64,000 bases of DNA from Rhizobium leguminosarum bv. trifolii WSM1325 (lineage in GTDB: Bacteria > Pseudomonadota > Alphaproteobacteria > Rhizobiales > Rhizobiaceae), in assembly GCA_000023185.1 (NCBI GenBank), contig CP001623.1, positions 682,001-746,000 of the forward strand, read 5' to 3'. The stretch's first letter is position 1, and every line of letters starts with the position of its first letter. A program made the translations under genes and the position numbers. The notes beneath the pieces are model-generated. The model did not search any database. It saw only the letters and a list, made by a program, of their open reading frames with translations, and was not told the DNA's origin. Shown here piece by piece: positions 1 to 11,608 of this stretch.

Positions 1-333
1 ATCCGTTGCCTTTGCGAGGATCTCGGCGAATTTCCACGCGCGGCCGCTCTGTTCCTGGCTGAGCGGCTTGGAAGGCGTGTCCTTCCGCCGCTGCCAGGTG
101 CGCAAGCTCATGCCCACCGCCTTTTCGAGGGACTCGTTCTTGCCGAGGACGACGAGAGTGCCGACAAGATGATCCAGTGCTGTTGCAGGCAGGCCGTGCA
201 GGAGCAGCTCATGGGCGTCGAGGGCATTGGTCAGGCTACGCGACAGAATGCGCGAACCGCCGAGCAATGCTTCGATTTTTTGCAGTTCACCACCGCCTGC
301 CGCTGAAGAGGGTGCTTTTGCTGCGACGGCCAT
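1..333 (-). CDS. Xre/ParS (MbcA-like) antitoxin, 3'-truncated by window edge
   Basis: The first 111 residues are present; the C-terminus lies outside the window. The protein reads like Xre/MbcA/ParS toxin-binding antitoxins: an N-terminal helical part, then a region with SLRTWQRRK and a following LSQEQSGRAWKFAEI helix, typical of the DUF2384-type toxin-binding domain. Such antitoxins neutralise RES-domain toxins (NAD-degrading in studied members) and repress their own operon. The ATG at 333-331 has AGGAGA upstream on the minus strand. The RES toxin gene would be expected downstream, beyond coordinate 1, so the pairing is inferred. Two direct repeats upstream look like the autoregulatory operator. 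Confidence 0.72.
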   Translation of the reverse strand, partial: MAVAAKAPSSAAGGGELQKIEALLGGSRILSRSLTNALDAHELLLHGLPATALDHLVGTLVVLGKNESLEKAVGMSLRTWQRRKDTPSKPLSQEQSGRAWKFAEILAKATD

Positions 334-603: not shown

Positions 604-1338
604 TCAGTCTTTTTTGCTGGTCGGCGCTGGCAGCAAGATGGGCTCTACCGAATGTTTCGGTGCCATCAGCTGTGCAAGAATGTCATCGGCCGAGTGGCTC
701 GAACTGCCAATGCCGGCCTCGCGCAGTTGACGATCGAGGTCGCTGCCGTTTTCCAGCGCGGCCAGTTCAGCACCGGCTTCGATGCGGCCGGCAGTGATTT
801 CCTGGCGTTTCTTGATGCGTTCGAGACTCTCGACGGCGCTACCGAGGCGGGTATTGATGCCCGACTGGCTATGGGCGATCGCCGATTGAGCGCGCAGCAG
901 CGATTCATTGGCTTTGACATTCCCCACCTCGCGCTTCATCTGAGCAATGCGCGCTTCGGTCTCCTGGATCGTGCGCAGCATCTGCTGCTGGCGAGGCAGC
1001 AGCCGGTCGAGCTCTTCCTGGTCGCGCTGCACTTCGGCACGGATACTAGCAATGCGCTGAGCCAGACCTTGAGCGAGATCCGTGCGGTTCGCGGAGATCG
1101 CAGCGCGAGCGCTGTCGGTATCCTTGGTCTCCTTGGCGCGGTTTTCGTCAAGTCGGCGCATGACGCTCTTGTTGGACGCCATGATGCCGGCAAGATCGGA
1201 TCGCGCACTGCGCAGCGACTGTTCAGCGTCGCGGATTTCTTGATCAAGGACGCGCATGGACTGGCTGTCGGCGGCCGCTTCCGCTGCCTCGTTAATGCCG
1301 CCGCGAATGGCGGTGAAAATCTTGCCCCAAGTGCTCAC
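604..1338 (-). CDS. yjfJ: PspA/IM30-family protein (YjfJ-like)
   Basis: A 244-residue, almost wholly coiled-coil protein with the PspA/IM30 opening MSTWGKIFTAIRGG and long heptad-rich helices through about residue 200, as expected for ESCRT-III-like membrane-coating proteins that line the inner membrane under envelope stress. The chosen start is GTG at 1338-1336, with GGGGAGA upstream and a 4-base GTGA overlap with the stop of the preceding DUF2170 gene, so the two are translationally coupled. The pair matches E. coli yjfI-yjfJ. A longer in-frame start at 1362 would lie inside the upstream gene and lacks a comparable ribosome-binding site. The specific role of this paralogue is not known. Confidence 0.85.
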   Translation of the reverse strand: MSTWGKIFTAIRGGINEAAEAAADSQSMRVLDQEIRDAEQSLRSARSDLAGIMASNKSVMRRLDENRAKETKDTDSARAAISANRTDLAQGLAQRIASIRAEVQRDQEELDRLLPRQQQMLRTIQETEARIAQMKREVGNVKANESLLRAQSAIAHSQSGINTRLGSAVESLERIKKRQEITAGRIEAGAELAALENGSDLDRQLREAGIGSSSHSADDILAQLMAPKHSVEPILLPAPTSKKD

Positions 1339-1781
1339 GCTGCAATCTCCCCGCTTTTCCACTCTTCAATCATGTGTGCCGCATCGACGGCATTGGCAGC
1401 CAGAATCGCGACTTCCTCGACCACCGTCTCGGCCGGCGAGCGTGCTGACAGCGAGCCGAACAATTCATACCATTCCTCACCGTCGATTGTGGTGATGCCG
1501 AAGCTGGAGAGCGGCACGAACTTATGGGTCTTCAGCACCATCCGTTCGAAGGCTTCTCGATTGGACACGTCCTTGCACGGCACCAGAACAGCGCTGACGA
1601 GGATGTCGCGCTCCCCGCTCACCGCGACGAAGACGTCGAGATCGCCCTTTTCCTTAAGAGTCACGCATATGACGTCGCCCTGTTCGGGTACGGCTACATC
1701 CACATCGCCCAGTGCGTCGGGATCGGCGGCGAACAGGCGCGTTAAAGTGGTGAGGTTCCAGGTCTCCAAAAAGTCCTCCAT
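1335..1781 (-). CDS. yjfI: DUF2170 family protein (YjfI-like)
   Basis: A protein of about 148 residues recognised as DUF2170/YjfI from its conserved body (WNLTTLTRLF near the start, then VPEQGDVICVTL and VLVPCKDVSNREAFERMVL) and from its place directly before a pspA-like gene. It is soluble with no signal peptide; its biochemical function is unknown. The family is found next to PspA, DUF350 and GspS-like ligase genes. The ATG at 1781 is preferred; a TTG at 1820 in the same frame would add 13 residues. Neither has a good ribosome-binding site. The shorter form leaves room for divergent promoters between this gene and the potassium-channel operon. Confidence 0.75.
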   Translation of the reverse strand: MEDFLETWNLTTLTRLFAADPDALGDVDVAVPEQGDVICVTLKEKGDLDVFVAVSGERDILVSAVLVPCKDVSNREAFERMVLKTHKFVPLSSFGITTIDGEEWYELFGSLSARSPAETVVEEVAILAANAVDAAHMIEEWKSGEIAA

Positions 1782-1814
1782 CGGTTGGAACGTCAAAATA
1801 TTTGGGTAATCGGT

Positions 1815-1844
1815 TTGCAACTTAAAGATCTGGTGCGCTAAATA
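1815..1844 (+). promoter_or_regulatory. possible promoter of the channel-yjfKLMC operon
   Basis: TTGCAA (1815-1820) and TAAATA (1839-1844) are separated by 18 bp in the divergent gap between the DUF2170 gene and the channel gene. Spacing and sequence approximate a housekeeping sigma promoter. This is inference from motif resemblance only. Confidence 0.3.
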
Positions 1845-1905
1845 AATTTCGCTAGGGTACGCGTTGGGAACGGGGGCGAATCGCTTGCCATTTATCGCTT
1901 CATTG

Positions 1906-2940
1906 ATGCGGCGTGTATATCTCTCGCTCAGCGAATTGGCCTGGTCAGCCCTTTTTGTTATCCTCGTGATCCACCTGGTCGCTTCTTACCTGCTCTTCAT
2001 GCTGGCCGGCGAAGCCGATCTCGTCGGCAATCCGGTCGACTTTCTTTATTACTATATGGTGACGGCAACGACTGTCGGCTATGGCGATCTTTCTCCAAAA
2101 TCGGGGGCCGGCCGATTAATTGCCGTCCTGTTCGTTCTTCCCGGCGGCATTGCCATCTTCACCGCTGTTCTTGGCAAGTTGTTGACAAATATCGGTACGA
2201 TCTGGAGGAATCGCATGCGCGGATTGGGTGATTACAGCGAACGTGCCGGCCATATCATCGTCCTGGGCTGGCAAGAGGGGCAGACATACCAGACGCTGCG
2301 GCTGCTGCATGCCGAACGGCAGGCCAACGAGCCGATGAGTGTTCTGGTTGCCAAGGACCTGCCGGAAAATCCCGCCAGCAATTACGCCGACTATATCAGA
2401 ACCGAGCGGCTTGCCGATGCCGATGCTCTGGTGCGGGCCGGAGTGGCCCAGGCGCGCGCGATCATCGCGCGCGGTGCAAATGACGACGAGACGCTGGCCG
2501 CCGTGCTGATTGCCGAAGACCACGCGCCCAATGCCCATATCGTGGCCTATTTCGCCGACGACCGCACGGCACAGATGGTCAAACAACGCCGGCCGCGCGT
2601 CGAGGCGGTGGGCTCGCTCGCCGAGGAGCTGCTGTCGCGTTCCGCCCGTGATCCGGGCTCTTCGGAAATCGCCGCACGGCTGCTGTCGGCCGCTTCCACC
2701 GACACGGCTTTTTCCCTGCCGGTGCCGCCTTTGCAAACGCCGCTACTCTATGGGGACGTGTTTTTAAGGCTCAAGCGTCAGCATAATGTGACGCTGGTGG
2801 GCATGCTGAGCCAGGGCATGACCGACCTCAATTGCCAGGACGAGACGCTGATGCGGGGCGGCGAGACCCTTTACTACATCAGCGGAATGCGGCTAGATCC
2901 CGCTGCCATCGCTTGGGCTCGAATGGGAGAGGTATCATGA
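1906..2940 (+). CDS. two-TM potassium channel with cytoplasmic RCK domain
   Basis: The protein has an N-terminal hydrophobic helix (about residues 13-33), a pore loop with the canonical K+ selectivity filter TVGYGD (56-61), and a second hydrophobic helix (about 68-92). A long cytoplasmic part begins HIIVLGWQEG, a Rossmann/TrkA-N-like RCK segment. This is the KtrAB/Kch-type layout of ligand-gated K+ channels. The ATG at 1906 is used; upstream TTG codons at 1864 and 1885 are in frame and the latter has GGGGGCGA before it, so the N-terminus is uncertain. The stop overlaps the next start (ATGA), tying the channel to the DUF2491-DUF350-DUF1190-ligase operon. E. coli yjfI-C lacks this channel, which makes the cluster notable. 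Confidence 0.85.
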   Translation: MRRVYLSLSELAWSALFVILVIHLVASYLLFMLAGEADLVGNPVDFLYYYMVTATTVGYGDLSPKSGAGRLIAVLFVLPGGIAIFTAVLGKLLTNIGTIWRNRMRGLGDYSERAGHIIVLGWQEGQTYQTLRLLHAERQANEPMSVLVAKDLPENPASNYADYIRTERLADADALVRAGVAQARAIIARGANDDETLAAVLIAEDHAPNAHIVAYFADDRTAQMVKQRRPRVEAVGSLAEELLSRSARDPGSSEIAARLLSAASTDTAFSLPVPPLQTPLLYGDVFLRLKRQHNVTLVGMLSQGMTDLNCQDETLMRGGETLYYISGMRLDPAAIAWARMGEVS

Positions 2941-3593
2941 TCGGCTGGTTCGGCAGAGACAAGAACGAAAGGCCCTTACCCAAAGAACTTGGCCCGTTGA
3001 GCGCCGCCATCGGCGGGGCGTTGGAGATCGATTTCCTCTCCCTCGAAGCCGATGCTTTGGCCGGCCAGCCGGCCATGCCGCTGCCACGGAGCGGCCCGTT
3101 CATCATTGCCGCCTACGGTGAGGTTTCGCTCGATGCCGCGACGGTTCTGTCGCGCTATTACGATGAAGACCATCGGATGATTCAGGTGATGTCGACGTCG
3201 GGCCAGCCGGGTGATGTCGACGACATCAGCTTTTATCAGCCCTGGGACAGCGTCGTGCCTGCCGGGCAGGGCGAATGGAACCGCTGGACCGGGCCGGACG
3301 GCCTGATCGGTCAGCCAAGCTACGATGCCGATGGCATCCTCTATAGCCGCTTCTGGGGCGAGGGCCCGGAACGCACCCCATTGGCGGAGTTTGTCGAGAA
3401 GGTCGACGACGGTGAGGCGCAGCGCTCCATTCACCAGACCTGCATGCTATATTATCGCCCGCTTGGCTCGACGCGCGAGATGCTTTTGATCAATGTCGAG
3501 CGCGACCTCGATCTCGGACAGAGCCAGGCAGGCAGCTCGGTGGAATTTCTGATCGGCTATGGACTCGCTCCGGCCGATGTTCGCCGCGTCTGA
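2937..3593 (+). CDS. yjfK: DUF2491 family protein (YjfK-like)
   Basis: A soluble protein of 218 residues matching the YjfK/DUF2491 family in length, content and position. It opens MIGWFGRDKNERPLPKELG, followed by a conserved middle with DISFYQPWDSVVP and a final region YYRPLGSTREMLLINVE. It has no signal peptide or membrane segment. The function is unknown; the family occurs with PspA, DUF350 and glutathionylspermidine-synthase-like genes. Its ATG at 2937 sits within the stop of the channel gene (ATGA overlap), with GGAGAGG upstream. Confidence 0.8.
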   Translation: MIGWFGRDKNERPLPKELGPLSAAIGGALEIDFLSLEADALAGQPAMPLPRSGPFIIAAYGEVSLDAATVLSRYYDEDHRMIQVMSTSGQPGDVDDISFYQPWDSVVPAGQGEWNRWTGPDGLIGQPSYDADGILYSRFWGEGPERTPLAEFVEKVDDGEAQRSIHQTCMLYYRPLGSTREMLLINVERDLDLGQSQAGSSVEFLIGYGLAPADVRRV

Positions 3594-3628
3594 GGGGATC
3601 CTATCAATTTCAACGGAGGACTTTTTCA

Positions 3629-4030
3629 ATGCTCGATTACGTGGCGGGTCTGCCTGCCTTCCTCGGCTATTTCGCCGTTGGTCTTGCCGCTTACGGCGTT
3701 TTCGCGGTGATCTACACATTCCTGACGCCGCAGAAGGAAGTCCAACTCATTCGCGCAGGCAATCTTGCCGCCGTCACGGCATTCTTGGGCGCGCTTGTTG
3801 GTTTCAGCCTGCCGCTGGCTTCGGCCGCAGCCAATTCGGTCAGCATAGTCGATTACATCATATGGGCGGTGGTCGGCATTCTGGCGCAGATCCTGGCTTA
3901 CTATATTGCGAATTTCACCATGACGGATCTGCATGAAAAGATCACTGCCGGCGATATCGCCGCGGGCATATGGGGCGGCGGCATCGCGCTGGTCATCGGT
4001 ATTCTCAACGCCGCCTGCATGACCTATTGA
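3629..4030 (+). CDS. yjfL: DUF350 membrane protein (YjfL-like)
   Basis: A 133-residue integral membrane protein with four predicted helices (about residues 10-30, 44-64, 72-94 and 107-129) and the DUF350 signature pattern of small polar loops, including the TPQKEVQLIRAGN loop. DUF350 proteins are small inner-membrane proteins of unknown function that accompany PspA and ATP-grasp ligase genes. ATG at 3629 follows GGAGGA. It lies 35 bp after the DUF2491 gene and 12 bp before the DUF1190 lipoprotein gene, in the same operon. Confidence 0.85.
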   Translation: MLDYVAGLPAFLGYFAVGLAAYGVFAVIYTFLTPQKEVQLIRAGNLAAVTAFLGALVGFSLPLASAAANSVSIVDYIIWAVVGILAQILAYYIANFTMTDLHEKITAGDIAAGIWGGGIALVIGILNAACMTY

Positions 4031-4042
4031 GGGGAGGGAACG

Positions 4043-4639
4043 ATGCGCAGACGTAAGAGCGGGCACAAACGACCTTTCCTGGCCCTCGGCACCATCGCTG
4101 CCTCGACCCTGGCCCTGTCCGGTTGCGGCGATCAGACTCCCTCGGAGACAATGTTCACCTCCGTCGACCAATGCGTGACTTCCGGCATGGACCGGCAGGT
4201 CTGCCAGGCCGGCTATCAGGATGCCATGCGGGCCCATCTCGCCGCCGCGCCGCGCTTCAACGGCATGGCCGCCTGCGAGGCCGAATACGGCTCAGGCCAG
4301 TGCACGGAACAGTCGGCCAGTGCCGTCCCCAACAATACCGGCGGAGGCGGCAGCTTTTTCGTACCGTTCCTGACGGGCTACATGCTGTCTTCCGCACTGA
4401 ACAACATCGGCGGCTATTACGATTATCGCCGGCGCCAGGAGGAGAGTGGCTCCTACGGCTCGACGCCGATTTATCGCAATCGCTCGGGGCAAACGGTGAC
4501 AACGACTGTTCGCTCGGGCGGTCGCAACGACACCGTGACTGCGCCCTCACGTCAGAGTGTCAAGCCGGTCAACGTCAACACCCGCACCGTCGCCCGTCAA
4601 GGCTTCGGGGGCCGTTCGTCGTTCAGTTTCGGCGGCTGA
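4043..4639 (+). CDS. yjfM: DUF1190 lipoprotein (YjfM-like)
   Basis: The 198-residue product has a basic N-terminus, a hydrophobic stretch and a lipobox LSGC with the lipidated cysteine at residue 28, so it is an envelope lipoprotein. The mature part carries several conserved cysteines (CVTSGMDRQVCQAGY, ACEAEYGSGQC) and a Gly/Ser/Arg-rich low-complexity tail ending in GGRSSFSFGG, as in DUF1190 proteins. Function is unknown. Its place between DUF350 and the ligase follows the E. coli yjfL-M-C order. ATG 4043 has GGGGAGGGAACG upstream. Confidence 0.85.
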   Translation: MRRRKSGHKRPFLALGTIAASTLALSGCGDQTPSETMFTSVDQCVTSGMDRQVCQAGYQDAMRAHLAAAPRFNGMAACEAEYGSGQCTEQSASAVPNNTGGGGSFFVPFLTGYMLSSALNNIGGYYDYRRRQEESGSYGSTPIYRNRSGQTVTTTVRSGGRNDTVTAPSRQSVKPVNVNTRTVARQGFGGRSSFSFGG

Positions 4640-4640
4640 C

Positions 4641-5798
4641 ATGAAGCGCATCACCCTTCCGGCGCGTCCTGATTGGCTTGACAAGGCGCGCGCCGTCGGC
4701 TTCGGGTTTCACGTCATGTACGGCGAGCCTTACTGGCTCGACGATGCCGCCTATACATTCACGCTCGATGAGATCGAGACACGGATTGAAGAACCGAGCC
4801 AGGAACTGCACGACATGTGCATGGATCTGGTCGATGATATCGTCAGAAGCGAAGAGTCGCTCGACAAGCTGGCTATTCCGGAGGACCTGCGCGATGTGGT
4901 GCAGCGCTCCTGGCAGCGTCGCGACCGGCACCTCTACGGCCGGTTCGATCTTGCTTATGACGGCACTGGCCCGGTTAAGTTGCTCGAATATAACGCTGAT
5001 ACTCCCACTTCGGTGTTTGAGACAGCCTATTTCCAGTTCAACTGGCTGACCGACCAGGTGGCTTTGGGTATCCTGCCCAAGGATGCGGACCAGTACAATT
5101 CCTTGCAGGAAAGCCTCGTCGAGGCGTTCGAGCAATTTTCCAAGGAGCCGATCTTCCACTTCGCGGCGATGACCGACAATGAGGAGGATCGCGGCACGAC
5201 GGTCTATCTGATGGACTGTGCAGTGCAGGCCGGCCATCGCGTCGAGCTTCTGGACATCCGCGAAATCGGCATCGATGCACAGGGCCGTTACACCGATCTC
5301 AAGGATCGGGTGATCGACCGCTGCTTCAAGCTGTATCCGTGGGAATTCATGCTGCGCGAGCCGTTCGCCCGCGACCTCGTGCGCTCGGGCGATGTTTTCG
5401 TCGAGCCCGCCTGGAAGGCCGTGCTTTCCAACAAAGGGCTTCTGCCTCTGCTCTGGCAGCGCCACCCCAATCATCCCAACCTGCTCGCTAGCTATTTCGC
5501 AGACGACCCGGCGGCGTCCAGTTTGAGCGATTATGTGCGCAAACCACTGCTGTCGCGAGAAGGCGAGAACGTCACGATATTCCGAGATGGCCGGGAATTG
5601 ATTTCCGCCCCCGGCGATTATGGCGACGAAGGCTTTATCGTCCAGGCCTATGCTCCGCTTTTCGAAAGCGATGGTGGCTTCGCCGTGCTCGGCAGCTGGA
5701 TCGTCGGTGATCGCGCCTGCGGTCTTGCCGTCCGCGAGGATCGCTCGCGCATAACCGCCAACTTGTCGCGTTTCGTACCGCATGTCATCGTCGGATAA
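4641..5798 (+). CDS. yjfC: glutathionylspermidine-synthase-like ATP-grasp ligase (YjfC-like)
   Basis: The 385-residue protein matches the GspS synthetase-domain family (YjfC is of similar length). It has an ATP-grasp core with LLEYNADTPTSVFE and a late segment with EGFIVQAYAPLF. The N-terminal amidase domain of true GspS is absent. Relatives ligate glutathione-like peptides to polyamines; whether this clade does so is unknown. A peptide or polyamine modification linked to the membrane module is an inference from the neighbourhood. ATG 4641 lies 1 bp after the DUF1190 stop. It is the last gene of the operon and is followed by a terminator-like hairpin. Confidence 0.82.
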   Translation: MKRITLPARPDWLDKARAVGFGFHVMYGEPYWLDDAAYTFTLDEIETRIEEPSQELHDMCMDLVDDIVRSEESLDKLAIPEDLRDVVQRSWQRRDRHLYGRFDLAYDGTGPVKLLEYNADTPTSVFETAYFQFNWLTDQVALGILPKDADQYNSLQESLVEAFEQFSKEPIFHFAAMTDNEEDRGTTVYLMDCAVQAGHRVELLDIREIGIDAQGRYTDLKDRVIDRCFKLYPWEFMLREPFARDLVRSGDVFVEPAWKAVLSNKGLLPLLWQRHPNHPNLLASYFADDPAASSLSDYVRKPLLSREGENVTIFRDGRELISAPGDYGDEGFIVQAYAPLFESDGGFAVLGSWIVGDRACGLAVREDRSRITANLSRFVPHVIVG

Positions 5799-5799
5799 G

Positions 5800-5836
5800 A
5801 GAAGGTATATCGCGCCATGCGCGGCTATCTTCTTTT
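5800..5836 (+). terminator. intrinsic terminator of the channel-yjfKLMC operon
   Basis: A stem built from AGAAG/CTTCT at its base and CGCGC/GCGCG at its tip with a CAT loop, ending in TTCTTTT, directly after the ligase stop at 5798. The shape and T-rich tail fit a rho-independent terminator. Confidence 0.6.
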
Positions 5837-5910
5837 AATCGTCGAGCGACGCAGCCCCAGTTTCAGCGGCGATGTCGCACTTGGAAATAGAATGTACCCC
5901 CTACAGACCG

Positions 5911-6105
5911 TGTGGCGGCAGGGTTGGAATGTCCGTTTGTGTGCAAAGTAGAAGTGTCACTTTGGGCGCTTCTTCAGCCATTTGCAAATGCGTCACTCGG
6001 CATGTCCACTTGCGCTGAGGCAAGCCCCCGACCGGACCGGCTGGACCGGGTTGCAAGGGAAGGGAGGGGGCGGGTGAGATGCTCCCCATCGGCTTTAGCT
6101 TTCTC
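5911..6105. repeat. left-end block, copy 1 of a long direct repeat (copy 2 at 7273-7470)
   Basis: About 195 bp here closely match 7273-7470 in the same orientation, including TTGGAATGTCCGTTTGTGTG, GGCATGTCCACTTGCGCT, and the GC-rich run around GGTTGCAAGGGAAGGGAGGG. The second half, from the TTAGAAATGCGAC-like motif onward, also recurs at about 8960-9092 in element C. The early part carries transposon-end motifs; the GC-rich part is non-coding and of unknown role. Confidence 0.7.
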
Positions 6106-6177
6106 AGTGGCAATTGTTCCGTCGCCGGTTGTACTATTGGCAGCTGTCTGTTGCAGGGTAGGGATCAAAGCCGCACG

Positions 6178-6915
6178 ATGCTTCCAGAAATCAAGCTGCA
6201 GGGGCACGTCGATGTCGCCGCGCTGTCACCACTTCTTCGCGGCATGCTTCTTTCGGTTGCCTATGCTGACGGTGAGGGTGGCATAGGATTGACTGCGACC
6301 GGCGCCATGAACCGCAAGTTCGTGCATTGGGCCGCTGTGCACTTCCTCTGGCCAAGCTTCACAGCCGAAGACCTCTACAGCATGAACAAGGTGCTCAATG
6401 AAAGCGACATGCCGCCGCTTTGGGTCGTGCGCGACATGACCCGCCACCTGAAGCTTCTTCGCCGGAAAAAGGATGTGCTGCTGCCAACTAGACGAGGCCG
6501 GGAGTTTTTGGCAAAACCGCAAGCCTTCTTCGATCTGATCGCCACGGATTATCTCTACTCGTATGTCCACGAAACCGATCGTGAAGAGGAGGTGCGGGCG
6601 CGGTTACGCTGGTGGCGCCTATTCCTCAATCTTCTCAATATCGCGGCCAGAGAAGGTTGCACGTCAATGGAGGTTGTGGAGATCCTCTATCCAGACCTGG
6701 CGCCTCTGTCGGACACCGAAATAACCCTGGAAGCCTGGAAGTTGAAATCCGATCTCCAGCACGGCGTCTTTCGACGCTTATGCTGGCTCGGCTTGCTCTA
6801 TGAGGCACGAGAGGGGCTCACTCTTCTCCAGGACGGATCCTTCCACAAGACGCCACTTTGGGCAGCCTGCCTGCAGTTGGAATCGGATACGCAAAGCGAC
6901 ATCGGCGTGCACTGA
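6178..6915 (+). CDS. ISNCY passenger protein, copy 1 (unknown function)
   Basis: A 245-residue soluble protein beginning MLPEIKLQGHVDVAALSP, nearly identical (about nine residue differences) to the product at 9166-9903. I see no signal peptide or membrane segment. Basic helices (RHLKLLRRKKDVLLPTRRG, RARLRWWRLFLNLLN) give a winged-helix-like impression, but no family can be named with confidence. The ATG at 6178 is chosen because similarity between the copies starts just before it and the upstream sequences then diverge. The gene sits between the left end and the transposase tail of the element, facing the transposase, in both copies. It therefore moves with the transposon; its job there is unknown. 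Confidence 0.6.
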   Translation: MLPEIKLQGHVDVAALSPLLRGMLLSVAYADGEGGIGLTATGAMNRKFVHWAAVHFLWPSFTAEDLYSMNKVLNESDMPPLWVVRDMTRHLKLLRRKKDVLLPTRRGREFLAKPQAFFDLIATDYLYSYVHETDREEEVRARLRWWRLFLNLLNIAAREGCTSMEVVEILYPDLAPLSDTEITLEAWKLKSDLQHGVFRRLCWLGLLYEAREGLTLLQDGSFHKTPLWAACLQLESDTQSDIGVH

Positions 6916-6921
6916 CGAACT

Positions 6922-7150
6922 TCATTCCGCTGGCTGCCTCATCAACGCCTTCTGCCTTTTGGGAATCACCTCCGGATCATTCATGAAGTCCGTCCGCCGA
7001 CCAGGCTTGCGGCCGCGCTTGTGATAACCATTGCCCTGGCTGCCATCGGGAATGCCGAACATATGATCCGTCTGGCCGGCGGCGAGGGCCGCTCTTGCTG
7101 CGCTGCTGTTCCCGCCCAGCCTGCAGCTCGGCGACGATGGAAAGCATGTC
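6922..7150 (-). pseudogene. ISNCY transposase remnant (C-terminal tail only)
   Basis: The last 76 or so codons match the end of the transposase at 9910-11334 (GNGYHKRGRKPGRRTDFMND, then EVIPKRQKALMRQPAE). A 2-bp deletion relative to that copy shifts the frame before GQTDHMFG. Everything upstream, including the HTH and DDE core, is deleted at the junction at 7148-7150. It is non-functional. Confidence 0.8.
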
Positions 7151-7272
7151 TCGACCAGACTGGAGGTCGTCATCCTTGCTCCCAAGGTTGGCATTGACCA
7201 GCGCGTCGAGGCGAGACTGTCGCATCTCTAACTGGCCCAACTGTCGCATTACTAAATAGCCCTTACACAACT

Positions 7273-7470
7273 TGTGGCGGGGAAGTTGGAATGTCCGTTT
7301 GTGTGCAAAGTAGAAGTGTCACTTTGGGCGCGTCTTCAGCTATTTAGAAATGCGACACTCGGCATGTCCACTTGCGCTAAGGCAAGCCCCCGACCAGACC
7401 GGCTGGACCCGGTTGCAAGGGAAGGGAGGGGGCGGGTGAGATGCTCCCTTCGGCTTTAGCTTTGACAGTT
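7273..7470. repeat. left-end block, copy 2 of the long direct repeat
   Basis: Second copy of the block at 5911-6105, ending at GCTCCCTTCGGCTTTAGCTTT. After this point the two copies diverge completely: copy 1 runs into a passenger gene and copy 2 into the 3' end of a transposase gene. The last 130 bp or so recur at about 8960-9092. Confidence 0.7.
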
Positions 7471-7481
7471 GGAGCAGCCAG

Positions 7482-8855
7482 TCATTCCGCCGCATCGAGG
7501 TCAGAGAGTGCTTGTCGCCGTCGGGCAATGACGGCGGGATCGTTCATGAAATCCGTCTTCCGACCCGGCTTGCGGCCCCGCGGCGTGTAGCCATTCTTCT
7601 CGCTGTTGGTCCTGACCTTGGGCGCCGGCAGTTGCTCCTGACGCTCCTTGATATAGGCCAGGACATCGCCGAGCCGCTTGTTCTCGGTGATCGCCGCATG
7701 CGTCACCCGCTGGTCCTTGTCGAACGTCTTGTAGGGCAGGGAATGACCTTTCCAGCGCACGTCCAGCCGGCCATCGGCATAGGCATAGGTCTCGACATAG
7801 CGGCCAACCAGGCCACGCGTCACATCACTCTCTTCCAGCATGATCCGCTGGCGCTCGAACGAGAACGTCAACTGCGCCCCGACATAGCGCTGCTCGCGCT
7901 TGCACAGGATCTCGCTGAGCCGGTCCGGCGCCAGATTCAGTGGCCGATGCAGGTCTTCCGACCGGGCAGGGGCAATCGCAAAGCGTGCGTTGTAGTCTTC
8001 CATGAAGCCAGGCAAAAACGCATTGCCTGCCGCCATGCCGGAAATCCCCGCCAGCCGCAGTTCCTTGACCAGTCGATCCTGCAACGTCCGGTTCATCCGC
8101 TCGACACGACCCTTCGCCTGGCTCGAATTTGCGCAAAGAATCTCAATGTTTAGCTCACAAAGCGCCCGCCCGAACTGGGTCATGCCCTGGCCACCCTTGG
8201 CCTCCTTCTTCGCCACCCGGAACACCGAATGCTTGTCGGAGTAGAAAGCCACAGGCGCGCCGTGATCGCGCAGGTAAAGCGCCAGCGCCTCGAAATAGCT
8301 GAAGGCGCTTTCCGAGCGCACGAACCGCAACTGCATCAGCTTGCCCGTCGCATCGTCGACGAACACCAGCAGCGAGCATGGATCACCGCGGTCCTCGAAC
8401 CAGCGATGCTCGGACCCGTCAATCTGCACCAACTCGCCATAGGCTTCACGCCGCAAGCGCGGCTGATGAAACGTCCGCCGCTGCTTGCGCGAGAGCCACA
8501 GGCCCGCATCCACCATCCAGCTGCGCAACGTCTCACGCGACACCCGCAACCCATCGCGCTCGGCAAGCTTCTCGGCCGCCAAGGTTGGTCCGAAGTCTGC
8601 ATAGCGTTCGCGAACCAACGTCACGGCGTAATCCCGAACCCCGTCGCTGATCCGGTTGTTCGACGGTCGGCCGATCGCTTTGTGCCGGATCGACGCCGCA
8701 CCACCCGTGTTGATCCGCTCCAGCAGACGACGCACCTGGCGCGTACTCAGATCAAGCACATGTGCCGCCGACACCATCGTCATCCGGCCGGCGATCACAT
8801 TCGATAGAATCTCGATCCGCTGCAGATCACGCTCGCTCATCGCAATCAGTCCCAT
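7482..8855 (-). CDS. ISNCY family transposase (element B)
   Basis: The 457-residue protein has an N-terminal helix-turn-helix (DLQRIEILSNVIAGRMTMVS, then DLSTRQVRRLLERI) and a DDE integrase core. Visible core motifs are GELVQIDGSEHRWFEDRG (first D), LLVFVDDATGKLMQLRF (second D), AFYSDKHSVF, and KGRVERMNRTLQDRLVKELR (the E region). A basic C-tail ends RGRKPGRKTDFMNDPAV. This is the ISNCY/IS1202 arrangement. The ATG at 8855 follows GGGAGATTGCGG; an upstream TTG and an internal ATG at 8840 are alternatives. It looks intact. It shares only moderate similarity with the element C transposase, so B and C are distinct insertion sequences. Confidence 0.88.
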   Translation of the reverse strand: MGLIAMSERDLQRIEILSNVIAGRMTMVSAAHVLDLSTRQVRRLLERINTGGAASIRHKAIGRPSNNRISDGVRDYAVTLVRERYADFGPTLAAEKLAERDGLRVSRETLRSWMVDAGLWLSRKQRRTFHQPRLRREAYGELVQIDGSEHRWFEDRGDPCSLLVFVDDATGKLMQLRFVRSESAFSYFEALALYLRDHGAPVAFYSDKHSVFRVAKKEAKGGQGMTQFGRALCELNIEILCANSSQAKGRVERMNRTLQDRLVKELRLAGISGMAAGNAFLPGFMEDYNARFAIAPARSEDLHRPLNLAPDRLSEILCKREQRYVGAQLTFSFERQRIMLEESDVTRGLVGRYVETYAYADGRLDVRWKGHSLPYKTFDKDQRVTHAAITENKRLGDVLAYIKERQEQLPAPKVRTNSEKNGYTPRGRKPGRKTDFMNDPAVIARRRQALSDLDAAE

Positions 8856-9165
8856 CCGCAATCTCCCAGGTCATCAAACAAGGGGAGAGTGACATTCCAA
8901 CTTTGCAGAAACAGGACACTTTAACTTTGCGGCTACACATATTGTCAAAGCTGGTTAGATGGGCGACGCTTTCAGCCGGTTAGAAACGCGACACTTGCGC
9001 TTCGGATTAGCCGCCGATCCGACCGGCTGGGCCGGGTTGCAAGGGAGGAGCGGGGGCGGGTGATGACACTCCCTTCGGCTTTAGCTTTCTCACTGGCAAT
9101 TGTTCTTTTGTCGCTCGATACTCGCTGGCACTTGCATGGCGCAGGATGGGGATCAAAGCCGCACG

Positions 9166-9903
9166 ATGCTTCCGGAAATCAACCTGCAGGGGCACGTCGA
9201 TGTCGCCGCGCTGTCACCACTTCTTCGCGGCATGCTTCTTTCGGTTGCCTATGCTGACGGTGAGGGTGGCATAGGATTGACTGCGACCGGCGCCATGAAC
9301 CGCAAGTTCGTGCATTGGGCCGCTGTGCACTTCCTCTGGCCAAGCTTCACAGCCGAAGACCTCTACAGCATGAACAAGGTGCTCAATGAAAGCGACATGC
9401 CGCCGCTTTGGGTCGTGCGCGACATGGCCCGTCATCTGAAACTTCTTCGCCGAAAAAAGGACGTGCTGCTGCCAACCAAACGCGGCCGGGAGTTTTTGGT
9501 GAACCCGCAAGCCTTCTTTGATCTGGTCGCCACGGATTATCTCTATTCGTATGTCCACGCCACCGAGCGGGAAGAGGAGGTCCGAGCGCGGTTACGCTGG
9601 TGGCGCCTATTCCTCAATCTTCTCAATATCGCGGCCAGAGAAGGTTGCACGCCAATGGAGGTTGTGGAGATCCTCTATCCAGACCTGGCGCCTCTGTCGG
9701 ACACCGAAATAACCCTGGAAGCCTGGAAGTTGAAATCCGATCTCCAGCACGGCGTCTTTCGACGCTTATGCTGGCTCGGCTTGCTCTATGAGGCACGAGA
9801 GGGGCTCACTCTTCTCCAGGACGGATCCTTCCACAAGACGCCACTTTGGGCAGCCTGCCTGCAGTTGGAATCGGATACGCAAAGCGACATCGGCGTGCAC
9901 TGA
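9166..9903 (+). CDS. ISNCY passenger protein, copy 2 (unknown function)
   Basis: The 245-residue protein is about 96% identical to the copy at 6178-6915; differences cluster around residues 75-140 (for example DMARH for DMTRH and HATEREEEV for HETDREEEV). The reading frame is intact in both copies although one partner transposase is destroyed, which hints at selection on the passenger or a recent duplication. The ATG at 9166 matches the start of shared sequence; an in-frame ATG at 9136 would add 10 residues. No function is recognised. It converges on the transposase gene with a 6-bp gap. Confidence 0.62.
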   Translation: MLPEINLQGHVDVAALSPLLRGMLLSVAYADGEGGIGLTATGAMNRKFVHWAAVHFLWPSFTAEDLYSMNKVLNESDMPPLWVVRDMARHLKLLRRKKDVLLPTKRGREFLVNPQAFFDLVATDYLYSYVHATEREEEVRARLRWWRLFLNLLNIAAREGCTPMEVVEILYPDLAPLSDTEITLEAWKLKSDLQHGVFRRLCWLGLLYEAREGLTLLQDGSFHKTPLWAACLQLESDTQSDIGVH

Positions 9904-9909
9904 CGAACT

Positions 9910-11334
9910 TCATTCCGCTGGCTGCCTCATCAACGCCTTCTGCCTTTTGGCAATCACCTCCGGATCATTCATGAAGTCCGTCCGCCGGCCAGGCTTGCGG
10001 CCACGCTTCTGATAACCATTGCCCTGGCTGCCATCGGGAATACCGAACATATGATCCGTCTGGCCGGTGCGGCGAGGGCCGCTCTTGCTGCGCTGCTGTT
10101 CCCGCCCAGCCTGCAGCTCGGCGACGATGGAAAGCATGTCGTCGAGACGCTTGTTCTCGACAACCTCTGCCCGGTGGACCGACCGCAATGTATCGAAGGT
10201 TCTGTAGGGCAGGGTGAAGCTCTCGTGCATGATCTCGAGGCGGCCGTCCGGGTAGTCGCAGACAACGACCTTCTTACCCGCCAATGGCCTGGAAATCTCG
10301 GTCGGATCGAGAATGAACAAGACCTTGTCGTAACGGAGCGTCAGCGACTGCGACAGTGTGCGGACTTCCTTCCGGCACATGGCGCCATCGAGATTCTCAT
10401 GGTCGGCCAGCGGTCGGTGCATGTCCTTCGGATTGCGCGGTTGCTTGCCGAACCGCGAATTGAAATCCGCAATGAACTCAGGCGCATAGGCATTGGCAGC
10501 TTCGATCGTATCGATGCCGCGAAGCCGCATCTCCTTCACCAGCCGATCCTGCAATGTCTGGTTGGCGCGTTCCACACGGCCCTTGGCTTGCGGAGTGTTG
10601 GCACAGATAATGTCGATGTTCAGCTCATAAAGCGCACGACCAAACTGCGTCAGGCCGCTCGTCCGGTCTTTCTCTGACGCATGCGTGCTACGGAAAACCC
10701 CATGTTTGTCGCTGTAGAACGCGAGAGGTTTGCCCCATTGCTGCAAATACGCCTTAGTCGCATGCAGATAGTCGAACGTGTTCTCTGATCCGGCGAACCG
10801 CAGGTGCAGCAGCTTGCCGGTCGCATCGTCGATATAGACGAGCAGGGCGCATTTGGGGCCGCGGTTCTCGAACCACCAGTGATGCGAACCATCGATCTGC
10901 ACCAGTTCGCCAAAGCAGTCGCGCCGGCCGCGTGGCTGGAAAACCCGTTTCTTGCGTTCCCGGCGCGAGATCCAGATGCCGGCCTCGGTCATCCATTGCC
11001 GCAGCGTCTCCTTAGCAACAGAGATCCGGTGCAGCTCGATCAGCTTCTCGCGAGCCAGCGTCGGGCCGAAATCCAGATAGTGCTCGCGGATCAGATCCAG
11101 CGCTGCATTGCGAAACTCCTCGCTGTGGCGCCGGTTGCTCGGCTGCGATCGTTTCTTGGAAACGAGGCCGGCTGGACCATCCCGGTCATAGGCCTGCAGC
11201 AACCGATGGACCTGACTTCGACTGAGCCCGAGCAGTTCGGCAGCCTGGACAACGCTCAGGCGTAGGTCACGGATCTTCTGGATGACTTCAAGGCGATGCA
11301 ACTCTTTCTGCGACATGGTGATCATAAAGGACAT
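9910..11334 (-). CDS. ISNCY family transposase (element C)
   Basis: The 474-residue protein has an N-terminal HTH (LSVVQAAELLGLSRSQVHRL) and a DDE core. Core segments include FGELVQIDGSHHWWFENRG, ALLVYIDDATGKLLHLRF, AFYSDKHGVF and KGRVERANQTLQDRLVKEMR. The C-terminus is basic and ends GRKPGRRTDFMNDPEV. ATG at 11334 has GGAGTCGTC before it. The gene appears intact and could act on the ends of elements A and C. Its C-terminal 76 codons are what survives in element A. Confidence 0.88.
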   Translation of the reverse strand: MSFMITMSQKELHRLEVIQKIRDLRLSVVQAAELLGLSRSQVHRLLQAYDRDGPAGLVSKKRSQPSNRRHSEEFRNAALDLIREHYLDFGPTLAREKLIELHRISVAKETLRQWMTEAGIWISRRERKKRVFQPRGRRDCFGELVQIDGSHHWWFENRGPKCALLVYIDDATGKLLHLRFAGSENTFDYLHATKAYLQQWGKPLAFYSDKHGVFRSTHASEKDRTSGLTQFGRALYELNIDIICANTPQAKGRVERANQTLQDRLVKEMRLRGIDTIEAANAYAPEFIADFNSRFGKQPRNPKDMHRPLADHENLDGAMCRKEVRTLSQSLTLRYDKVLFILDPTEISRPLAGKKVVVCDYPDGRLEIMHESFTLPYRTFDTLRSVHRAEVVENKRLDDMLSIVAELQAGREQQRSKSGPRRTGQTDHMFGIPDGSQGNGYQKRGRKPGRRTDFMNDPEVIAKRQKALMRQPAE

Positions 11335-11608
11335 GACGACTCCGACCGCTCATGGTCTTGACCAGGCTGAAGATCGTCATCCTTGCTCCCAACGTTGGCT
11401 TTGACCAGTGCGTCGAGAGGCGAGACTGTCGCATCTCTAACTGGCCCAACTGTCGCATTACTAATTAGCCCTTACACAACTGTATGGCATAAGATAGCTT
11501 ATGGAACAAAGTGATTGCACTGGCCTACGCGTGATCAGCGAACCGAAGTTCGTTAGACTATGCTTTTCATCGCGATCACGCGACCGTCCCGGTCCCCGGA
11601 ACACGCGA

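Follow-up and report, generated by a model that had tools for sequence, protein, structure and literature searches.

A candidate protein substrate for the GspS-like ligase of a YjfIJKLMC-type envelope module in Rhizobium leguminosarum

The gene cluster described here lies on plasmid pR132501 of the clover-nodule bacterium Rhizobium leguminosarum bv. trifolii WSM1325, and its closest described relatives are the third group of CesT/Tir–PspA operons of Ravi et al. (2024; PMC11237479), which in the accessible text of that work are of the same operon type, K+ channel included. The features of that group are all found in the window (the whole stretch analysed, 64,000 nucleotides, positions 682,001 to 746,000 of contig CP001623.1): a DUF2170 gene adjoins a pspA-family gene, a GspS-related ATP-grasp ligase is encoded in the cluster, and a K+ channel with an intracellular sensing domain, DUF350, DUF1190 and DUF2491 are present. 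The window differs in that its two halves are divergently transcribed. The gene set has thus already been published and the new element is the pairing of the ligase with a proposed protein substrate, the DUF1190 lipoprotein; section 19 of Ravi et al. treats DUF1190 as a metal-chelating lipoprotein and mentions neither a tail nor an enzyme–substrate pairing.

Two Escherichia coli operons are also closely related. A first reading of the DNA made without database searches (hereafter the sequence-only reading) had stated that yjfIJKLMC holds the same families but no channel, and E. coli gene annotation agrees. The tolC-ygiBC operon shares the DUF1190–ligase pair with the window but, unlike it, has no channel, PspA, DUF350 or DUF2491 annotated in the surroundings of ygiBC. 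The same reading knew of little experimental work on such genes, which is out of date. Both E. coli ligases, YgiC and YjfC, have crystal structures, both are named 'peptide--spermidine ligase' in RefSeq, and three papers cite Pederick 2023 as reporting that both are peptide–spermidine ligases. In heat-evolved E. coli, yjfIJKL is strongly upregulated, according to the available part of one report (PMC12492005). A related DUF2170–PspA operon of six genes, bac (bacA-bacF), influences Pseudomonas biofilms (PMC10948618); in the available text of that study the P. aeruginosa operon resembles the window in its DUF2170–PspA pair, the structure of BacA is CesT/Tir-like, and a spermidine synthase homologue is, by the authors' account, absent from the operon and its surroundings; we compared the operon by its description. 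In the literature that we searched we found no natural substrate of YgiC or YjfC and no paper naming YgiB, YjfM or DUF1190 as a ligase substrate; Iyer 2009, Pederick 2023 and Sui 2012 lay outside this search and may already hold part of the idea.

The module and its parts are as follows.

604-1338, minus strand: PspA/IM30 family protein (YjfJ type), 244 residues; PspA_IM30 PF04012, 7.6e-37; extent as in RefSeq
1335-1781, minus strand: DUF2170 protein (YjfI type); PF09938, 2e-43; start as in RefSeq
1782-1884, no strand: divergent intergenic region of 103 bases between the two transcription units, from the gene coordinates
1885-2940, plus strand: K+ channel with TVGYGD filter and RCK-like cytoplasmic domain; Ion_trans_2 PF07885, 2.2e-14; TrkA_N PF02254, 7.2e-6
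2937-3593, plus strand: DUF2491 protein (YjfK type); PF10679, 2.6e-52
3629-4030, plus strand: DUF350 membrane protein (YjfL type); PF03994, 2.6e-34
4043-4639, plus strand: DUF1190 lipoprotein (YjfM/YgiB type), 198 residues, the proposed ligase substrate; PF06693, 6.9e-35
4595-4636, plus strand: C-terminal tail of the DUF1190 protein, residues 185-198, RQGFG and nine further residues of which the last two are Gly-Gly; from an alignment of 23 DUF1190 proteins
4641-5798, plus strand: ATP-grasp ligase of the YgiC/YjfC family, 385 residues, no amidase domain; GSP_synth PF03738, 2.4e-146

We propose that this is a YjfIJKLMC-type envelope module whose enzymatic core would be a peptide–spermidine ligase and one dedicated protein substrate, the DUF1190 lipoprotein. 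In this protein a lipid-bearing anchor would be followed by a small folded domain, marked by four conserved cysteines, and then by a disordered RxGFG...Gly-Gly tail. The ligase would recognise the RxGFG tail in the cytoplasm, prior to export, and ATP would activate the C-terminal carboxylate of the tail, in the way that GspS activates glutathione at its terminal Gly. Spermidine, or an amine like it, would then be joined to the activated C terminus, giving an envelope lipoprotein whose strongly cationic end would suit it to bind anionic lipid, lipopolysaccharide (LPS) or peptidoglycan; PspA/DUF2170, DUF350 and DUF2491 would be the partners at the inner membrane and the K+ channel an optional member. 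On the comparative evidence that follows we put the probability of this reading at about 0.58; some recognition of the tail by the ligase seems to us highly probable.

The window ligase is 51% identical to YjfC and 50% identical to YgiC and matches their structures over 383-384 of its 385 residues (7uk8, YgiC, 4.3e-127; 7uk6, YjfC, 1.9e-122). Over its synthetase part it is also a sequence relative of E. coli GspSA (gss) and of trypanothione synthetase. GSP_synth is the one domain found in it, and the N-terminal amidase domain of GspSA is absent. For comparison we assembled single-domain ligase loci, 116 in all. They are the window's own, two of E. coli K-12, the nearest 80 of at least 593 matching stretches from a scan of genome contigs, and 33 found in an even sample of 200 Pseudomonadota genomes that includes the window's genome. 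A broken GSP_synth fragment in genome G110 and a duplicate of the window (L105) were excluded before counting, and ligases of more than 560 residues scoring less than 400 bits were called two-domain. The equivalents of gss R316, D318, E330, N332, D334, E391, K498, K533, Q568 and R598 are identical in 116/116 single-domain ligases and in 9/9 two-domain enzymes (eight loci and E. coli gss). At the equivalents of gss S335, S337 and T441, which we take to contact glutathione, every one of the 116 single-domain ligases has T, T and L, and the equivalent of gss D610, presumably a spermidine contact, is Arg in 111 of them. Because the catalytic residues are identical and these contact positions differ, the window enzyme should be an active ligase with a peptide partner other than glutathione; which amine it uses appears less certain.

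The gene directly upstream of the ligase encodes the DUF1190 protein, and the sequence-only reading overlooked the tail that ties the two together. The protein has a lipobox (LSGC, Cys28), and in an AlphaFold2 model of moderate confidence (mean predicted local distance difference test, pLDDT, 63.8) it is folded at about residues 35-154, with residues 155-198 below pLDDT 50. Among the 23 aligned DUF1190 proteins R185, G187, F188 and G189 are invariant, on a par with the four conserved cysteines, and G197 and G198 are conserved at 90% or more. E. coli YjfM and YgiB, like the window protein, carry an R[GQ]G[FY]G tail that closes with Gly-Gly, of the form R-G-G-[FY]-G...GG in both E. coli proteins. 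A protein-database search in which 8,000 candidates were scored gave 1,062 homologues; the best 120 of these, mostly close relatives, have the motif in 120/120 and the Gly-Gly end in 118/120. We considered a topology in which a hydrophobic-looking stretch at residues 103-119 forms a second transmembrane segment and leaves the tail in the cytoplasm, and dropped it because the same model places strands there, inside the folded domain. We also looked for tagged proteins elsewhere in the host genome; the DNA pattern matched 368 times there and its reversed control 282 times, which was too unspecific, and the search was not used.

Across the 116 loci the pairing of tail and ligase is nearly universal. 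An open reading frame (ORF) with the strict motif, R.G[FY]G within its last 45 residues, lies no more than 4.5 kb from the ligase at 109/116 loci. In 102 of the 109 it is on the ligase strand and no more than 300 bases away; for the other seven the distance is 365-3,679 bases, and four of these are encoded on the opposite strand. The seven remaining loci (L078, L085, L086, L089, L090, L092 and L093) have looser GGF-type tails, e.g., SGGFG, FGGFG, RGGFT and RGGFK. When ligases are clustered at 60% identity a strict carrier is present in 20/23 clusters, and in 17/20 of the clusters that hold neither the window nor E. coli sequences. The background is low: among ORFs of at least 100 residues, counted mechanically in all frames of the same stretches, the strict motif occurs in 3/3,996. 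The eight two-domain GspSA loci served as a control and, unlike the window ligase, have no adjacent tailed neighbour; the one match among them is a 56-residue ORF 2.2 kb away.

The carrier is not always DUF1190. At 21/116 loci no DUF1190 scores over 60 bits, and here small proteins with a hydrophobic N-terminal segment stand beside the ligase and carry the tail. With tails removed, the HHalign probability of a match to DUF1190 is 2.5% for the Bradyrhizobium-type carriers and 1.4% for the Hyphomicrobium-type. Such carriers may be unrelated to DUF1190 or may be descendants that lost the domain and kept the tail; whichever their origin, the tail appears from these comparisons to be the part that persists.

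Departures from one tailed carrier per ligase also occur. At about 5.4-6.0 kb of L169 two different tailed small proteins (ends ...HAHGGG and ...FGFGGG) are encoded near one ligase, which may serve both. At L081 a ligase whose own carrier is tailed is followed downstream, at 8669-10003, by two further DUF1190-like genes that lack the RxGFG tail. Genome G187 has three scattered DUF1190-like genes (L095, L096 and L097), none of them tailed, and its ligase (L078) has another small neighbour with a loose tail.

The pairing does not by itself say what the ligase does with the tail. The tail could be a docking or regulatory peptide only, the real product being a small peptide–spermidine conjugate made from another peptide. 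Docking would explain the co-occurrence of ligase and tail equally well, RxGFG is more conserved than the last residue, and ligase activity has reportedly been seen on short peptides. The terminal residues, however, are themselves constrained. Among 20 representatives of the 60% identity clusters 13 end in Gly-Gly; shuffling the last 12 residues 10,000 times gave a mean of 2.4 such ends and never more than 9. A tail that served for docking alone could end in any residue, so that this constraint speaks against it. Nor does Gly-Gly seem to be a by-product of a Shine-Dalgarno sequence for the ligase start, since it is kept in carriers without a ligase directly downstream (7/8 strict carriers, and 12/12 opposite-strand carriers in the held-out family introduced below). 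As the terminal residues also differ where the ligase has been lost, we regard docking alone as unlikely.

The pairing of tail and ligase was examined further in a held-out set of 119 genomes from another family, of which 11 have DUF1190, 13 the ligase and 10 both. In ligase-bearing genomes DUF1190 has the strict motif and the Gly-Gly end in 10/10, and in the three ligase genomes without a Pfam DUF1190 small neighbours end RGGFG...FGE, RGGFG...SGG and RGGLG...VGS. Genomes with DUF1190 also have the ligase in 22/23 cases in the 200-genome sample (Fisher p 4e-18) and in 10/11 in the held-out family (p 3e-11), both values ignoring kinship. The exception in both sets is the same genome, G087, a member of the held-out family that is listed as 100% complete and has DUF1190 with no GSP_synth match anywhere in the genome. 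Its genus is represented by 61 genomes; DUF1190 occurs in five of them besides G087, and those five are also the ones with the ligase. Compared with one congener (G322), both flanks in G087 are collinear (72% and 78% DNA identity) and just the ligase stretch is absent; tblastn at E <= 1 found no remnant of the ligase in the 15-kb G087 stretch. The tails of the five ligase-bearing congeners keep GF and end in SKGG, and in G087 the Phe has become Val (GGVG) and the end is EGS.

The K+ channel gives a different picture. In the 200-genome sample DUF1190 was found in 23 genomes, GSP_synth in 38, DUF2491 in 12, DUF2170 in 22, DUF350 in 54 (51 over cut-off) and a channel-like protein at E <= 1e-10 in 25. 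A co-occurrence check on all families gave the full set, PspA included, in nine of the 200 genomes, from coordinates and gene maps: seven with the channel (G000, G043, G015, G122, G130, G154 and G199) and two without (G050 and G119). For G066, G098, G162 and G182, which are among the 11 strongest channel matches, none of the module's other genes lies in the roughly 15 kb examined. Taking 'no channel' to mean no channel-profile match at E <= 0.001 in the stretch examined around the locus, the 116 ligase loci comprise 20 complete modules with the channel, 12 complete without it, one partial module, two loci with DUF350 and the channel but without DUF2491, 26 with DUF350 and neither DUF2491 nor the channel, and 55 with neither DUF350 nor DUF2491 found nearby. 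In a tree made quickly from 83 ligase representatives, parts of which are made unsure by long branches, channel presence among modules changes at least seven times. Among the window's close relatives the channel is in the Rhizobium loci and not in those of Agrobacterium vitis and Devosia, where the gap between DUF2170 and DUF2491 is too small for a channel gene. The channel is an optional addition to the module, and the constant core in these comparisons is the GspS-like ligase and a small anchored protein, here DUF1190, with a disordered RxGFG tail mostly ending in Gly-Gly. In addition, three stretches (L098, L099 and L100) contain DUF2491 genes with no ligase, DUF1190 or channel in the stretch examined, one of them with DUF350, and so DUF2491 occurs outside the module too.

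These data bear on the sequence-only reading of the cluster as an integrated membrane-stress system that combines the ligase product with K+ flux and a PspA coat and has the channel as a functional partner. In its favour the channel is present in 20/32 complete modules, Ravi et al. (PMC11237479) count it as an operon member, and in the window its gene overlaps that of DUF2491 by four bases. An envelope module with a peptide or polyamine ligase and a PspA-type protein, kept as a set, does stand. K+ flux as an integral partner is not supported, because 12/32 complete modules lack a detectable channel and 4/11 of the strongest channel matches lie outside modules; the repeated changes on the ligase tree and the 55/116 ligase loci with neither DUF350 nor DUF2491 point the same way, and we found no link between the channel and the ligase product. 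We consider the integrated system quite improbable.

A third possibility is that the tail works at the envelope, on LPS, peptidoglycan or a partner such as DUF350, and has no need of the ligase, the pairing reflecting only operon co-inheritance. This would suit a Ser/Gly/Arg-rich, predicted disordered tail, as surface-binding tails can be, and the ligase's presence in 22/23 DUF1190 genomes. We think it very unlikely, as carriers whose N-terminal parts differ have the tail in common, many tailed carriers had no DUF350 found nearby, and the tail differs in G087, where the ligase alone is missing between collinear flanks.

Several points weigh against amine attachment to the DUF1190 tail. All of the support is comparative, and no modified tail has been seen. 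The lipobox leads one to expect the tail outside the cytoplasm, yet the ligase needs ATP, and modification before export must therefore be assumed; YgiB, moreover, occurs in E. coli vesicle proteomes, as stated in the available part of one study (PMC7973035). The equivalent of gss D610 is Arg in 111/116 ligases, so a different amine could be used. The scan contributed just the nearest 80 relatives, a redundant set, and all seven loci that fail the strict motif come from the even sample, where it is consequently present at 26/33. The Gly-Gly end is found in 96 of the 109 strict carriers (Ser ends 12 and Glu one) and falls to the 13/20 given above among representatives. A third carrier type, from the Pseudomonas group, has an HHalign probability of 38% to DUF1190 and may be a relative of it. 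Among the 13 held-out ligase genomes, one has only RGGLG with a Ser end and fails the strict motif, and another has a Glu end. In the genus of G087 the motif Arg is Lys or Ala, so that none of the five congeners has the strict motif; further tail residues are changed in G087 itself, and this natural loss of the ligase is a single lineage.

The other parts of the module are as the sequence-only reading named them: all seven families are present, each protein passes its curated Pfam cut-off (7/7), and RefSeq annotates the same seven genes. That reading ran the cluster to 5836, which is 38 bases past the end of the ligase, and had the genes tied by ATGA/GTGA overlaps. Such overlaps exist at two junctions only, DUF2170/PspA in the leftward unit and channel/DUF2491 in the rightward one; the remaining three junctions, along DUF2491, DUF350, DUF1190 and the ligase, have gaps of 35, 12 and 1 bases. 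The divergent intergenic region is partially conserved in an alignment of six loci, and we assigned no promoter to it. The DUF2170 fold is CesT/Tir-like according to the available parts of Ravi et al. 2024 (PMC11237479) and Wallart 2024. DUF2491 is modelled as a mostly beta protein (AlphaFold2 mean pLDDT 87.1), for which a fold comparison found no confident match. The channel resembles MthK and Kch-type channels in its TVGYGD filter and RCK-like domain; its closest solved structure is MthK (1.7e-14), and its best NCBIfam model, PRK10537 (7.5e-20), is under that model's cut-off. It is unlike Ca2+-gated MthK at the positions aligned with the Ca2+-site acids, here Arg, Tyr and Ala by a residue numbering that we take to be that of MthK.

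Mobile and toxin-related genes surround the module. On one side (window 1-333, minus strand, and pR132501 681345-682333) a DUF2384/Xre-like antitoxin gene, with an Xre-like helix-turn-helix, adjoins a RES-family NAD+ phosphorylase gene, apparently a toxin–antitoxin pair, and RelE/ParE-family and VapC-family toxin genes lie further upstream of it. On the other side, 5895-11481 is insertion-sequence debris with two ISNCY-family transposase genes and repeated blocks, among them blocks of 300 bases (at 6138 and 9126, 97%) and 192 bases (at 5895 and 7257, 91%). A 278-residue open frame at 6079-6915 (plus strand) has no Pfam match, and part of it recurs about 3 kb downstream.

The proposal extends beyond this plasmid. 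YgiC/YjfC-type enzymes may be dedicated protein C-terminal polyamine ligases that read a portable tag (proposed as RxGFG, a Ser/Gly/Arg linker and usually a Gly-Gly or Gly-Ser end) on several different anchored envelope proteins, E. coli YgiB and YjfM included, and cap it with spermidine before export; we hold this wider claim to be evenly poised. If it is true, it would supply a concrete chemistry for many operons, among them the so far unexplained tolC-ygiBC and yjfIJKLMC of E. coli, and it would help to explain why polyamine enzymes recur beside PspA-type genes, as noted by Ravi et al. (PMC11237479). C-terminal polyamine amidation would then count among the post-translational modifications of bacteria, as one by which envelope proteins are made cationic, and would take place in E. 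coli itself.

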